A stretch of DNA of 64,000 bases, taken from positions 124,001 to 188,000 of the forward strand of contig CADCHN010000001.1 of NCBI GenBank assembly GCA_902801295.1. Reading direction: 5' to 3'. The notes below the pieces were generated by a model, which saw only the letters and a list, made by a program, of their open reading frames with translations, was not told the origin of the DNA and did no database searches. Shown here one piece after another: positions 45,202-52,449 of this stretch; positions within the stretch are counted from its first letter, which is position 1, and every line of letters begins with the position of its first letter. The translations under genes and the position numbers were made by a program. Source of the DNA: Oscillospiraceae bacterium (lineage in GTDB: Bacteria; Bacillota; Clostridia; Oscillospirales; Oscillospiraceae).

Positions 45202-46764
45202 TCACCCGTAGAGGGACCAGATTTTACCCGACTGCTGATAGGTATCGTAACCGAACTGCTCGCAGAGCAGAGAGTAGCGCTCGTTGCGGTCTCCGTTTTC
45301 ATCAAAGCGCCAGGCACCCTCTGCCGGGTCAACCCAGCGAAATTCACATTCGCAGTCCGGATGACGCTCAATCATTTCCTTTTGCTGTTCCTCGGGCACA
45401 TAGCTCATCGTGCAGTAAAAGCGCTTGAGCTCCGGCAGATCGTATAGGGCGCTGATGTCCGTCGGGCCGACTGTGTTATTTTTGGAATCGACGGAATGGC
45501 TGACGTTCAGATGCTGCAGGTGAGTACAGCTGGCCAGCGGAGACAGGTCGGTCACACGGGTGGAAAAGAGCTCCAGATATTCAAGGTTTGGGCAGTTGGC
45601 GATCGGCCCGATATCACTGACCCAGGAAATAGCGAGAATCGCCACTTCGAGCTTGGGCATGTAGCTGAGAAAATCAACCTTTGTCATCAGCGTATGGCCG
45701 AGATCAAGATACTTGACGTCCGTGCAGTATTTCAGCACGCCGCAGGTCGAATCGTTGACCGAACCGCCGGTAGCCCAGATCATCTCCGTGTCTGTCAGAC
45801 AGTGATAACTGCCGAAGAACACGCGCCAGACAACTTTGACCTGCGGGAAATCGTCGCGCAGCTTCTCCATCGTTTCGTCGTCCACGCCGCAGTTGTCGAG
45901 CTTCAGATAGCGCAGATTTTTCAGATACGGGAGAATGGCTCGAAGCTCATCCACGCCCTCGTTTCCGATGTCTTCATTTTCATATTCGAGAGTCTCGGCG
46001 TCGAGCGATATCGGCTGGCCGAAAAGCTCCGTCTGAAAATCCAAACGAATGACGTCACTCTGTTCGGCAAGCGTCATCGCGTCCTCAAGGCTCAGGTCGT
46101 TTTCGGCCTGGGGAATATTGACGGCCGTCAGATGCGTAAAGCGGGAAAGCTGCGGAAGAAGCTCCTGCAGCGTTGCGGAATTCAGGCCGGTCAAGGTAAG
46201 CTCGTCAATATCATAGGGATAGAGCTCGTCCATCAGGTGCAGCGAGTAGTCGATCCTGCAGTCGGGAGCAGCTTCGTGCAGCGCGTCTACTGCGGCAGAG
46301 TCGGCAATATCCGATTCAATGGAAATACTGTTCAGCCGAGGCAGCCAGATGACATTTTCCGCAAGAGAGGCCAGATAAGACGCATCGTTTACCTGAAGCG
46401 TATCGGTGTCCGGGCTAAGATACAGGGGATCACCATTACCGTCGATGACAATGGCATAGCTCAGAGCCACATCGGGGTGCTGCTGTCGGAATTCCTCGAT
46501 GGCCTCATAGCATCGGCTGCCGGTCAGGTCAAGACGCAGCAGGGAGGAAGTATCCATGGCGCGAAGTTCTTCGGCAGTGAGAATTGCCTTCAGCTCGACG
46601 GGCGGCGTCGCAGGAGGAAGCGTGGCTGCGTTCAGCGTTTCAGAAGTATTTTCCGGGTTTGTATTCTTAGTGGATGGCATAGCGCCGCCGCTCAGCCGCA
46701 GGTATAAGAGCAGACCAAGCAGGAGAGCGAGAGCGACGATTGCCAATCGTTTTCCGTGTTTCAT
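45202..46764 (-). CDS. Leucine-rich-repeat surface protein with N-terminal membrane anchor
   Basis: A 520-residue protein with a basic N-terminus and one hydrophobic helix (about residues 7-24), probably a signal anchor, then a Thr/Pro/Asn-rich linker. The rest is leucine-rich repeats, clearest in the second half (LRYLKLDNCGVDD, VKYLDLGHTLMTK, LEYLELFSTRVTDLSPLAS, LQHLNVSHS). No enzyme domain is seen. It probably binds protein or glycan partners at the cell surface. ATG is the complement of 46762-46764 with GGAGG upstream. Confidence 0.82.
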   Translation of the reverse strand: MKHGKRLAIVALALLLGLLLYLRLSGGAMPSTKNTNPENTSETLNAATLPPATPPVELKAILTAEELRAMDTSSLLRLDLTGSRCYEAIEEFRQQHPDVALSYAIVIDGNGDPLYLSPDTDTLQVNDASYLASLAENVIWLPRLNSISIESDIADSAAVDALHEAAPDCRIDYSLHLMDELYPYDIDELTLTGLNSATLQELLPQLSRFTHLTAVNIPQAENDLSLEDAMTLAEQSDVIRLDFQTELFGQPISLDAETLEYENEDIGNEGVDELRAILPYLKNLRYLKLDNCGVDDETMEKLRDDFPQVKVVWRVFFGSYHCLTDTEMIWATGGSVNDSTCGVLKYCTDVKYLDLGHTLMTKVDFLSYMPKLEVAILAISWVSDIGPIANCPNLEYLELFSTRVTDLSPLASCTHLQHLNVSHSVDSKNNTVGPTDISALYDLPELKRFYCTMSYVPEEQQKEMIERHPDCECEFRWVDPAEGAWRFDENGDRNERYSLLCEQFGYDTYQQSGKIWSLYG

Positions 46765-46806
46765 AAGTGCCTCCGTCAGCAGAAACTTCATGATAAATTG
46801 CTTCGT

Positions 46807-49004: not shown

Positions 49005-49038
49005 TTGCAGGAAAGCATTGCTTTCCTGCAACTTTTTT
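49005..49038. terminator. Bidirectional terminator between obgE and the SASP gene
   Basis: TTGCAGGAAAGC (49005-49016), ATT loop, GCTTTCCTGCAA (49020-49031), then CTTTTTTG; the minus-strand reading also ends in a T-run. Confidence 0.92.
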
Positions 49039-49050
49039 GCTCGATTGAGC

Positions 49051-49251
49051 TTACTTCATGCCGTTCTCGTAGGACTCGATCATCTTTTTGACCATCTGAC
49101 CGCCGATGGAGCCGGCCTGACGGCTGGTGAGCTCGCCGTTGTAGCCATTCTTCAGATTGACGCCGACTTCGGAAGCGGCTTCCATCTTGAACTTATCCAT
49201 GGCCTCACGGGCAGCGGGGTTAACCAGATGATTGCTGTTTCTGCTAGACAT
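49051..49251 (-). CDS. Alpha/beta-type small acid-soluble spore protein
   Basis: A 66-residue DNA-binding protein that coats the chromosome in the dormant spore. The two conserved helices are seen as NPAAREAMDKFKMEAASEVGV and LTSRQAGSIGGQMVKKMI. Translation is placed at the ATG complementary to 49249-49251 because GGAG is nine bases upstream; the earlier ATG touches that signal. No confident sigma-G promoter was recognised upstream. It shows that the organism has spore genes. Confidence 0.95.
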   Translation of the reverse strand: MSSRNSNHLVNPAAREAMDKFKMEAASEVGVNLKNGYNGELTSRQAGSIGGQMVKKMIESYENGMK

Positions 49252-49402: not shown

Positions 49403-49432
49403 TTGACATCGCGGGGTTAAATGCCGTATCAT
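49403..49432 (+). promoter_or_regulatory. Promoter of the P-type pseudo-ATPase gene
   Basis: TTGACA (49403-49408), 18 bases, TATCAT (49427-49432), about 57 bases before the ATG. The rest of the 49252-49488 gap is AT-rich with no other feature I can support. Confidence 0.7.
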
Positions 49433-49488: not shown

Positions 49489-51849
49489 ATGGGTAAGCAT
49501 GAAGCGCCGTCTCCTGCAAAAAAGAGATCGGCCGGCTCGCCGAAGCACGCCGCGCCCGCTTCTTCCAAAGGCGGTTTACGTCTGAATCCGCAGGAATGGA
49601 AGCTCCCGAAGCTGCCGAAGATTTCGGATTTTTCCGCTTTGAAGAACGCGAAAGTCAGCTCTGAACCAGAGGATGAGGAACTGATCGAGGATATTCTCCC
49701 GGATGAAGACGAGGACGTTAAAGTCTTTCCCGACAAAAGGAGAGCTGAGGCAGTTCCTGCAGCAGAACCTTCCGCTGAATCCGATGCTTCGGAGACTCCG
49801 GAGCAGATTGCACCGACGGAAGATTACCGGCCTGACGTCGAAGAAGATGATGAGGCGGAAGAGGAGTACGAGGATGAGGAAACGGACGATTTGCCGTCTC
49901 CCAGAAAAGCTTTGAATCTCCCCAAGCCGGATTGGCAGGTTTTGCGCGGCTTTTTTGAGCGTCTGGCAGCGTTTGGCGTTTCCGGATCGGGTGACGCGCC
50001 GAAGCATAGACGGGCGGTCGCTTTCAATCGGTATCAGGTTTTGATTACCGCAGGCTCTGCGCTGCTTTTCTTCCTTTTGTGGATGCTGCCGACCAGAGGC
50101 GCGCTCCGCTATATCCTCTATCTGGTTCCGTTCCTGTTTCTCGGTGCGTATACGGTTCTGGATGCCGTCGGGGAAGTTGTGGATCATGTCATTCCCGGGC
50201 GAAATCTGATGATTTCTGTTGCCGCGATCGGACTCCTTTGCCTTGGCGATCCGCGGGCGGCTGTCTTCGTTATGCTTCTGCACCGCATCTTCCTGCTGAT
50301 TGAAGCCTATCTATTTGAGAAAAAGGCGGCAGCGCTGGACAGCCTGAATGCCTTGATCCCGGACAATGCCGTCGCTGAGACGGAAGACGGTCTTGAGCGC
50401 AAAGACCCGAGAGAAATGGTGCCCGGCGATATTTTGTTCATTCCTGCCGGCGAGCGGATTGCGCTGGACGGCGTCGTCGTCGAGGGCATCAGCTCGCTGG
50501 ACAGCTCCGCGCTCTGCGGAAGCGGATCAACCCTTGATGTGGGGATTAACAGTCGCGTTTTTGCCGGCTGCCGCAATCTCACCAATCCGCTGCGCGTCCG
50601 TGTGACAAACGCCTATACCGATTCCACGGTTTACCGCTTTGTTGCGCGCGCCCGCGCAGCCGCTGACAGCCACCCGGCGAGAGCGTCGCTTCTGCAGAAG
50701 ATTTTGTCTTATCTCCCCCTGACGCTGGCTGCACTTGGTCTGCTGCTCGGGCTGATCGTGTCTCTCGTCACCGGTGCCTGGCGCGTCTGGCTCTACCGCG
50801 GCCTGCTGCTGATTGCGCTCGGCGGCTGCGGCGATACGCTTTTGTCTGCGCGTATGGCATATTTTACCGGCGTGGTTGACGCTGTAAAAGACGGCATTTC
50901 CTATCTGAATGACGACGTCATCGACCGCTACGCGGGCTCTGACATGATGATTTTCTCCAAAACCGGGTCGATTACGGAAGGTAAGTACTCAGTCGTTGCC
51001 GTATATCCGGTTGATTATGAGGAAAAAGACCTGCTGACAATCGCGGCGCTGGCCGAGTGCCAGTCCATGCATCCGATCGCCGTCGCCCTGCGCGACGCCT
51101 GCGGCATTGAGATTCATCATCGCAATGATATCACTTTGCTGGAGGAGACACCGGGACGAGGAATCCACACGCTTTTCGGCGGCCGTAATGTGTATGTCGG
51201 CAACTCCTCACTGCTGCTTGATCACAATATCGTCTTTGACGTTCCTTCGCACAAGGGAACGGTGATTCATGTGGCGGTGGACAACAAGTACGCCGGCTGC
51301 ATTGTGCTCAACGACCGTGTGCGCGAGGGCGCCTTTGACGCCATCGAGGAGCTGCGCCTGCGCGGCATCCGCGCGGCCGTGATGCTGACCGGTGATGTGC
51401 GCTCTATGGCGCGGCCCATCGCCTCGTCTCTGAGCTTTGACATGGTCAAATGCGAGCTCTCCAACGAATCCAAACTCGATGCGCTGAACTATCTCCGTGA
51501 CAGTAAGGGCAATAACGCGGCCATCAGCTATGTGAGCAGCAAGGACGAGGATCTTGAGCTGCTGGAGGCGGCGGATATCGGCGTCGGCTTTGCTGCGCTG
51601 ACCGAGTACAGGCTGATCGGCGCAGCGTCCGTGCTGATTATGGGCAATCGCATTTTCCAGATCCCGCAGGCTCTGTATCGCGCCAAGCGCATTTCCATGG
51701 CGGCATTTCTGGCCGCGGCCATTATGCTCGGCCTCGAGCTGCTGCTTCTGATTCTCGGCCTGTCCGGCGTCGTCAGTGTTTGGCTTGCAATGCTGCTGAT
51801 CCTGATCGCACGTGTCGGAACGCTGGTCTATACCATTTATTTCAAATAA
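49489..51849 (+). CDS. P1B-type ATPase homologue lacking all catalytic signature residues
   Basis: A 786-residue membrane protein with the P1B (heavy-metal) ATPase layout. Residues 1-180 are a basic then very acidic tail with no metal-binding domain. Helices lie near 184-275, 405-450 and 736-782. The actuator domain (VPGDILFIPAGERIALDGVVVEG) has CGSG where TGES is expected. The membrane CPC site is GCG (446-448). The phosphorylation motif DKTGT is SKTGS, with Ser490 for Asp. GDGxNDxP is SSKDEDLE. The HP pair (528-529) and TGD (634-636) remain. GGGAGG sits ten bases before ATG 49489; the longer frame reads antisense to the SASP gene. Confidence 0.88.
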   Translation: MGKHEAPSPAKKRSAGSPKHAAPASSKGGLRLNPQEWKLPKLPKISDFSALKNAKVSSEPEDEELIEDILPDEDEDVKVFPDKRRAEAVPAAEPSAESDASETPEQIAPTEDYRPDVEEDDEAEEEYEDEETDDLPSPRKALNLPKPDWQVLRGFFERLAAFGVSGSGDAPKHRRAVAFNRYQVLITAGSALLFFLLWMLPTRGALRYILYLVPFLFLGAYTVLDAVGEVVDHVIPGRNLMISVAAIGLLCLGDPRAAVFVMLLHRIFLLIEAYLFEKKAAALDSLNALIPDNAVAETEDGLERKDPREMVPGDILFIPAGERIALDGVVVEGISSLDSSALCGSGSTLDVGINSRVFAGCRNLTNPLRVRVTNAYTDSTVYRFVARARAAADSHPARASLLQKILSYLPLTLAALGLLLGLIVSLVTGAWRVWLYRGLLLIALGGCGDTLLSARMAYFTGVVDAVKDGISYLNDDVIDRYAGSDMMIFSKTGSITEGKYSVVAVYPVDYEEKDLLTIAALAECQSMHPIAVALRDACGIEIHHRNDITLLEETPGRGIHTLFGGRNVYVGNSSLLLDHNIVFDVPSHKGTVIHVAVDNKYAGCIVLNDRVREGAFDAIEELRLRGIRAAVMLTGDVRSMARPIASSLSFDMVKCELSNESKLDALNYLRDSKGNNAAISYVSSKDEDLELLEAADIGVGFAALTEYRLIGAASVLIMGNRIFQIPQALYRAKRISMAAFLAAAIMLGLELLLLILGLSGVVSVWLAMLLILIARVGTLVYTIYFK

Positions 51850-52413
51850 ATGAACGTTTACGACTTTGATCAAACCATTTATTATCCGGACAGCTCCTAT
51901 CACTTTTTTCTGTATTGCCTGAAGAAAAAACCGGCAGCCGTACTCCCGGTTATTCCCAAAAGCCTTCTTTTTGCGATGCGTTATCGCCGCGGTAAGATCG
52001 GCGCCAAACCGCTGAAAGAACAGTTGTTTTCCTTTTTGACCCGGTTTGATAACGTGGATCGGACGGTGACGGAATTCTGGAAGCTGCACCGCGATAATCT
52101 GCAGGACTGGTATTTAAAGCAGAAGCGGGATGACGACCTGATTATCTCGGCCTCGCCGGAGTTTTTGCTGGAGCCGATTGCACGGGAGCTTGGCGTCTCC
52201 CTGATTGCCACGCGCATGGATCCGCGCAGCGGCAAAATCAGCGGAGAAAACTGTCACGACGCGGCAAAGGTGCATCGTTTTTTTGAGCGATTTCCCAACG
52301 GGATAATTGACGCCTTTTATTCCGACTCGCTGTCTGACGCACCGCTGGCCGAGCTGGCCGGACAAGCCTATTTTGTAAATAAGAACCAACGGAATCCTTG
52401 GCCAAAAAAATAA
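51850..52413 (+). CDS. HAD-IB family phosphatase
   Basis: A 187-residue SerB-like HAD phosphatase with an intact catalytic set: DFDQT with Asp5 and Asp7, motif II SASPEFLL, a lysine in AAKVHRF and motif IV SDSLSDAPL. A helical cap lies between motifs I and II. Substrate unknown. The ATG directly follows the stop of the pseudo-ATPase gene with no gap, and its ribosome-binding site would have to lie in that gene's last codons, so it is probably translated by coupling. Confidence 0.85.
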   Translation: MNVYDFDQTIYYPDSSYHFFLYCLKKKPAAVLPVIPKSLLFAMRYRRGKIGAKPLKEQLFSFLTRFDNVDRTVTEFWKLHRDNLQDWYLKQKRDDDLIISASPEFLLEPIARELGVSLIATRMDPRSGKISGENCHDAAKVHRFFERFPNGIIDAFYSDSLSDAPLAELAGQAYFVNKNQRNPWPKK

Positions 52414-52417
52414 TCAT

Positions 52418-52449
52418 AACAGCCGCTGCCATCGGGCAGCGGCTGTTTT
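52418..52449 (+). terminator. Terminator after the HAD-IB gene
   Basis: AACAGCCGCTGCC (52418-52430), ATCG, GGCAGCGGCTGTT (52435-52447), TTA. Confidence 0.85.

Follow-up and report, generated by a model that had tools for sequence, protein, structure and literature searches.

The locus described here raises two questions: what a P1B-type ATPase gene is kept for once the residues of the transport cycle have been replaced in an otherwise uninterrupted frame, and why a phosphatase gene starts at the base directly after its stop codon. It lies in a 64,000-nucleotide stretch of an Oscillospiraceae bacterium (positions 124,001 to 188,000 of contig CADCHN010000001.1, assembly GCA_902801295.1), which is referred to below as the window.

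A two-gene unit downstream of obg

The following features make up the locus and its borders (positions are those of the window):
49005..49031, forward strand: intrinsic-terminator-like hairpin past obg, with a 12-pair stem and a T run
49403..49432, forward strand: sigma-70-like promoter 5′ of the pseudo-ATPase gene, TTGACA-18-TATCAT (11/12 consensus positions; a consensus match only)
49489..51849, forward strand: P1B-derived pseudo-ATPase gene (786 aa), one open frame with the TAA stop codon at 51847-51849
51850..52413, forward strand: HAD-IB phosphatase gene (187 aa), with its ATG at 51850, the base after the ATPase stop
52418..52447, no strand assigned (scored on the reverse strand): strong 13-pair hairpin right after the HAD-IB gene, likely the end of the unit

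The hairpin at 49005-49031 parts the pseudo-ATPase/HAD-IB unit from rplU-rpmA-obg, and together with the promoter-like sequence at 49403-49432 and the hairpin at 52418-52447 it indicates that the two genes are probably transcribed as a unit of their own. A gene for a small acid-soluble spore protein (Pfam, E=6e-29) lies on the reverse strand at 49051-49251, between obg and the pseudo-ATPase gene, and suggests spore-forming ancestry; further upstream (45205-46791), the same strand encodes a protein of 529 aa that contains leucine-rich repeats (Pfam LRR_4). A role as a defence system was rejected since PADLOC returned no defence-system match, and a viral origin was rejected since viral contigs held no relatives.

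The window ATPase has lost its catalytic residues but kept its nucleotide-binding elements

Judged by its profile and structure matches, the homology of the window ATPase to P1B ATPases is far above chance, i.e., E=6e-76 against TIGR01525 (256.5 bits, below the NCBIfam cut-off of 346.25), 220.9 bits against TIGR01512 (below the NCBIfam cut-off of 313.5), 6.5e-23 against Pfam E1-E2_ATPase and 2e-40 against the zinc-transporting ATPase structure 4umv. Its parts, all on the forward strand, are as follows:
49489..50016: N-terminal extension (residues 1-176), acidic at residues 55-142
50515..50526: A-domain CGSG replacing TGES (residues 343-346)
50824..50832: TM4 GCG replacing the CPC metal site (residues 446-448)
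50956..50970: P-domain SKTGS replacing DKTGT (residues 490-494), with Ser490 where the phosphorylated Asp stood
50989..51288: N (nucleotide-binding) domain (approximately residues 501-600), the most constrained part (dN/dS 0.008-0.036)
51388..51396: P-domain TGD, kept (residues 634-636), with D636 in 88/88 genus sequences

The original prediction had correctly read the 786-codon uninterrupted frame, the three replaced motifs and the disappearance of GDGxND (VGDGxND), in place of which the P domain reads SSKDED (YVSSKDED). Its wider statement that every catalytic motif had been lost holds for the Asp, the Glu, CPC and the GDGxND residues, but not for the nucleotide-binding elements HP, GxG, GN, KTG and TGD, all of which are present (e.g., in MHPIA, PGRG, VGN and LTGD). 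Likewise, the acidic stretch that it placed in a tail is real (36 D+E vs. 8 K+R across residues 55-142) but is located in the N-terminal extension, which is common to the closest relatives (L151, L152 and L153) and absent from most of the genus. Membrane segments are still present in the protein, and AlphaFold, run on shallow alignments (4 and 3 sequences), gave poor models (pLDDT 37.6 and 39.5). Since the same Ser490 was found in the independent public MAGs RUG12339, SRR1222429 bin.124 and RGIG7997, a sequencing error or assembly artefact was ruled out.

Motif loss is genus-wide and uneven

The genus consists of gut and rumen Clostridia, and most of the genomes analysed look draft or metagenome-derived. 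A search with the HAD-IB protein found it in 93 of 102 genomes (34/34 of those of good quality), and 88 ATPase sequences were taken from beside the HAD-IB gene for a table of motifs. Among these 88, TGE was kept in two, CPC in one, the Asp at position 490 in 29 and GDGxND (scored as GDGxxD) in 51; not one had all four motifs, and 72 had at most one. In comparison, all four were present in 27/27 canonical P1B paralogues from the genus and other genomes, and such paralogues occur in the genus, the window's own genome included (G000:C3, L130).

Position 490 was occupied by D (29), G (25), S (14), E (9), N (9), T (1) or C (1), and parsimony required at least 10 changes there as opposed to none at K491 or T492, which were invariant (88/88), as were D636 and K662. 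As to the proposed check of whether SKTGS is conserved and always next to the HAD-IB gene, Ser490 occurs in 14/88, and the ATPase lies upstream of HAD-IB at nearly all loci, directly or with one gene in between. Members that kept the Asp had lost other motifs, with 14 of the 29 also retaining GDGxND, and some of these lineages might be phosphorylated even now. About 10 members have no alignable A-domain motif, nine of them being short forms of 552-568 residues; in these (L064, L070, L082, L085, L092, L098, L099, L102 and L105), residue 490 is Ser or Gly and GDGxxD is mostly kept.

Purifying selection, with the constraint moved to the N domain

Pairwise dN/dS values ranged from 0.05 to 0.26 for the pseudo-ATPases, from 0.07 to 0.27 for canonical pairs and from 0.05 to 0.20 for HAD-IB, with synonymous change near saturation in some of the pairs. 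The check on orthologues that had been proposed at the outset thus returned values matching those of the canonical paralogues, and the pseudo-ATPases are under purifying selection in all compared pairs. A pseudogene under relaxed selection or with a broken frame was rejected on the basis of these values and of the conserved open frame. The pseudo-ATPases hence combine lost catalytic residues with purifying selection, as a pseudoenzyme does, their inactivity itself being a prediction. There is strong support for the original proposal of a selected pseudoenzyme from the independent genomes, the 88 HAD-linked ATPases, the low dN/dS, the invariant residues and the gene linkage.

It had also been reasoned that relatives with DKTGT would betray a recent pseudogene or a sequencing error. 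Such relatives do exist, i.e., the 29 of 88 that keep the Asp and the intact pumps of the sister genus g250 (see below), but neither a recent pseudogene nor a sequencing error is indicated. Since the members that keep the Asp have lost other motifs, and since all compared pairs are under purifying selection, the DKTGT relatives reflect ancestry rather than recent death.

Within the protein, the constraint is unevenly spread. Between the window ATPase and its 77-78% relatives, dN/dS was 0.008-0.026 in the N domain and 0.04-0.05 in the second part of the P domain, compared with 0.12-0.25 in TM3-4 and 0.11-0.23 in TM5-6. Relative to the mean of the whole protein, N-domain identity was higher in the pseudo clade (+0.07 to +0.11, mid ranges) and lower in canonical pumps (-0.11 to -0.15), TM3-4 identity showing the opposite pattern. 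When independent sister pairs were compared, conservation of the N domain exceeded the average of the membrane parts in 27 of the 28 pseudo pairs but in none of the six canonical ones (Mann-Whitney p=4e-5). The constraint has therefore moved from the membrane helices to the N domain. Moreover, some residues are near-invariant in the pseudo clade and missing or variable in canonical pumps (e.g., E620, R623 and P586).

The residues retained in the N domain of the 88 sequences are E523 (88), H528 (81), P529 (87), G556 (80), G558 (88), G571 (88) and N572 (87). By motif, G556, G558, G571 and N572 correspond to ATP-contact residues of ATP7B, in which NMR signals link ATP with G1099, G1101, G1149 and N1150 (PMC3203118). 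From this sequence evidence we infer that the window protein is a nucleotide-binding protein without pump activity, and the same evidence speaks for nucleotide rather than metal or lipid as the ligand.

The HAD-IB partner and its association with P-type ATPases

The partner matched Pfam HAD above the cut-off of that family (9e-17) and TIGR01490 below its curated cut-off (69.6 vs. 98.3 bits); it scored under the curated cut-offs for every named function and gave a partial match to phosphatidylglycerophosphatase C. As originally noted, its gene follows the ATPase stop without a gap (ATG at 51850) and its DxD is intact, and the full set of active-site motifs (DxD, S/T, K and D..D) was found, with D5, D7, S/T100, K140, D159 and D163 in 95/95 homologues.

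At nearly all genus loci the ATPase gene lies upstream of HAD-IB, usually with a gap of -4 to 33 bases, and at 23 loci (e.g., L036, L037, L046, L067 and L104) a gene that is nitroreductase-like by sequence appearance only stands between the two. Two genus members (L118 and L119) have HAD-IB directly after obg with no ATPase, so that the phosphatase is not strictly dependent on the ATPase. Outside the genus, the HAD-IB family is patchy (64 other genomes in an order sample of 394), and at approximately 50 loci examined outside g250 and g202 no P1B gene was found directly beside HAD-IB, the exception being an ordinary CopA-like gene some 400 bases from HAD-IB at L133. In the genus g202 (L174, L239 and L240), the gene after HAD-IB encodes, in 3/3 cases, an intact P-type ATPase that belongs to a different class (CVDKTGTIT).

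In the HAD-IB tree, the ATPase-linked g1 and g202 sequences group with no member from an unlinked genus (support 0.927), and the group that includes g250 contains six unlinked members (0.983). The linkage and the grouping suggest that these HAD-IB proteins have long been associated with P-type ATPases. ATPase and HAD distances showed a partial correlation of 0.60 given obg, although computed over non-independent pairs.

An unlinked HAD-IB relative (L184) adjoins a UbiA gene that tested as decaprenyl-phosphate phosphoribosyltransferase-like, and by appearance unlinked HAD-IB genes at L143 and L187 have a similar UbiA neighbour, which suggests that the phosphatase may act there on lipid-linked sugar phosphates. 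Reading the substrate of the window's HAD-IB from this context was dropped, since the transferase was not detected in the window's genome. In several genomes of genera g231 and g244, the HAD-IB match contains one in-frame stop, which could reflect a difference in length at the C terminus or a genuine break.

The pair is probably older than the decay

In the sister genus g250, an adjacent ATPase/HAD-IB pair is present in all six genomes. The ATPase is intact in five of them (TGES or TGEA, CPC, DKTGT and GDGxND; L175, L176, L177, L190 and L197), with His-rich N termini in L175 and L176. The sixth HAD-linked pump (L201/L242, G745) has TGDR, SFA and GDAVSD, with DKTG(T) kept, and by its motifs is a separate, independent case of the same decay. 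The HAD-linked ATPases of the genus and g250 stand apart from the canonical paralogues with a support of 1.0, while the genus set is only weakly monophyletic relative to g250 (0.30-0.63).

Since g250 carries an intact ATPase in the same pair, the simplest reading is that the pairing of pump and phosphatase came first and the decay later, in which case HAD-IB would not have been recruited to replace lost chemistry. The original suggestion that the phosphatase supplies this chemistry consequently lacks support as a case of replacement: the same HAD-IB stands beside the intact g250 pump, and L118 and L119 have HAD-IB without an ATPase.

Separately, g250 contains a second degenerate P-ATPase-like class (approximately 540-570 aa), present once per genome (L205, L210, L214, L215, L218 and L219), which forms its own clade (support 1.0). 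It has no A domain, DKTGT is changed to DK[ASF]D and TGD to [TSA]ED, and HP and GDGxND are lost; its best matches elsewhere in the order resemble ordinary full-length pumps.

Possible functions of the pseudo-ATPase

With slightly better than even confidence, we favour a selected, non-transporting, nucleotide-binding pseudo-pump with an output that would probably run via the HAD-IB protein. Its ancestor would have been a working pump, probably of the zinc/cadmium class, already paired with the HAD-IB phosphatase gene. Within the genus, the metal site, the dephosphorylation Glu and, in most lineages, the phosphorylated Asp would then have been lost, so that the transport cycle would no longer be possible, and selection would now fall chiefly on the N and P domains in the cytosol. 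The present protein may be membrane-anchored and hold ATP or a related nucleotide between its N and P domains without phosphorylating itself, and nucleotide-dependent closure of these two domains might control or position a partner protein, for which the HAD-IB phosphatase is the likeliest candidate. Such control of the HAD-IB protein is speculative, being drawn from linkage and correlated evolution; use as a sensor or scaffold is plausible. Going further, it is possible, though somewhat doubtful, that these proteins constitute a novel class of membrane proteins responsive to ATP, derived from a P-type metal pump that decayed in several lineages, in which the nucleotide-binding head is a sensor controlling the HAD-IB phosphatase and of which the apparently working g250 pair would be the ancestral form.

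The first alternative retains the membrane protein as a receptor or anchor for the HAD-IB phosphatase but has it bind metal or lipid instead of nucleotide. The membrane segments are indeed retained, and the HAD-IB family of the partner (TIGR01490, with a partial match to phosphatidylglycerophosphatase C), as well as the decaprenyl-phosphate phosphoribosyltransferase neighbour of its unlinked relative, hint at lipid-linked substrates. However, the metal-site residues, CPC and the TM6 Asp (771) included, vary freely across the genus set, and the constraint is located in the N and P domains, making this explanation unlikely.

It has also been considered that the protein is a silent partner that forms mixed complexes with an intact P1B paralogue and so tunes metal export. 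Canonical paralogues with all motifs are available for this in the genus, including in the window's genome, and the pseudo clade has its origin in the same broad family of pumps; yet a mixed pump would require the partners to fit together at the membrane helices, the least conserved part of the protein, and the linkage that is conserved is with the HAD-IB gene and not with the canonical pump. We regard this as improbable.

Transport or lipid movement by an unusual cycle that dispenses with the Asp, through phosphorylation of Ser, Thr or Glu or through ATP-gated passive movement, would fit the Ser (14), Glu (9) and Thr (1) among the substitutes at position 490, the retention of KTG and TGD and the presence of a membrane region. 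It is harder to square with Gly in 25 members and Asn in nine, with CPC and the A-domain Glu being nearly always gone, with the approximately 10 members devoid of an alignable A-domain motif and, in the window's lineage, with the further loss of the GDGxND residues involved in Mg2+ binding, so that we give it little credence. Finally, slow pseudogene decay with no present function would account for the many independent losses across motifs and for the ATPase of L094, which is split by a frameshift, but is most improbable in view of open frames in nearly all members, dN/dS values like those of intact paralogues (and of 0.008-0.036 in the N domain) and residues invariant across 88 divergent sequences.

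Comparison with known systems

P1B-2 pumps (the ZntA/CadA class; TIGR01525/TIGR01512, 4umv) share with the window ATPase the fold as judged by sequence, the membrane layout, HP/GxG/GN, KTG/TGD and the A-domain core; in contrast to them, it has no phosphorylated Asp, TGES, CPC or GDGxND, scores below the family cut-offs and has its constraint in the N domain. The HAD-IB-linked P1B pumps of g250 form the same adjacent pair and fall on the same side of the tree relative to the canonical paralogues (1.0), but their catalytic motifs are intact (L201 excepted). As for the partner, it has all the HAD-IB active-site motifs of TIGR01490 (HAD-SF-IB-hyp1) and of the PgpC and histidinol-phosphatase relatives, whereas it scores under every named-function cut-off.

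P-type ATPases are defined by their phosphorylated Asp. No P-type pseudoenzyme or pseudo-ATPase was found in the part of the literature that our search covered, which is weak evidence of novelty. Annotated by homology only, these genes would pass for heavy-metal exporters, a role that they very probably do not have. With selected relatives across a whole genus, an Asp that is free to vary, a frozen nucleotide site and an intact g250 pair, they offer a natural series from pump to non-pump, by which roles of P-type ATPases without transport and the cooperation of HAD-IB phosphatases with P-type ATPases become testable. A parallel in kind is formed by other pseudoenzymes, such as the nucleotide-binding pseudokinases, in which a catalytic residue is lost, the nucleotide site is kept and an allosteric role is presumed; here, however, the scaffold is a multi-helix P-type pump.
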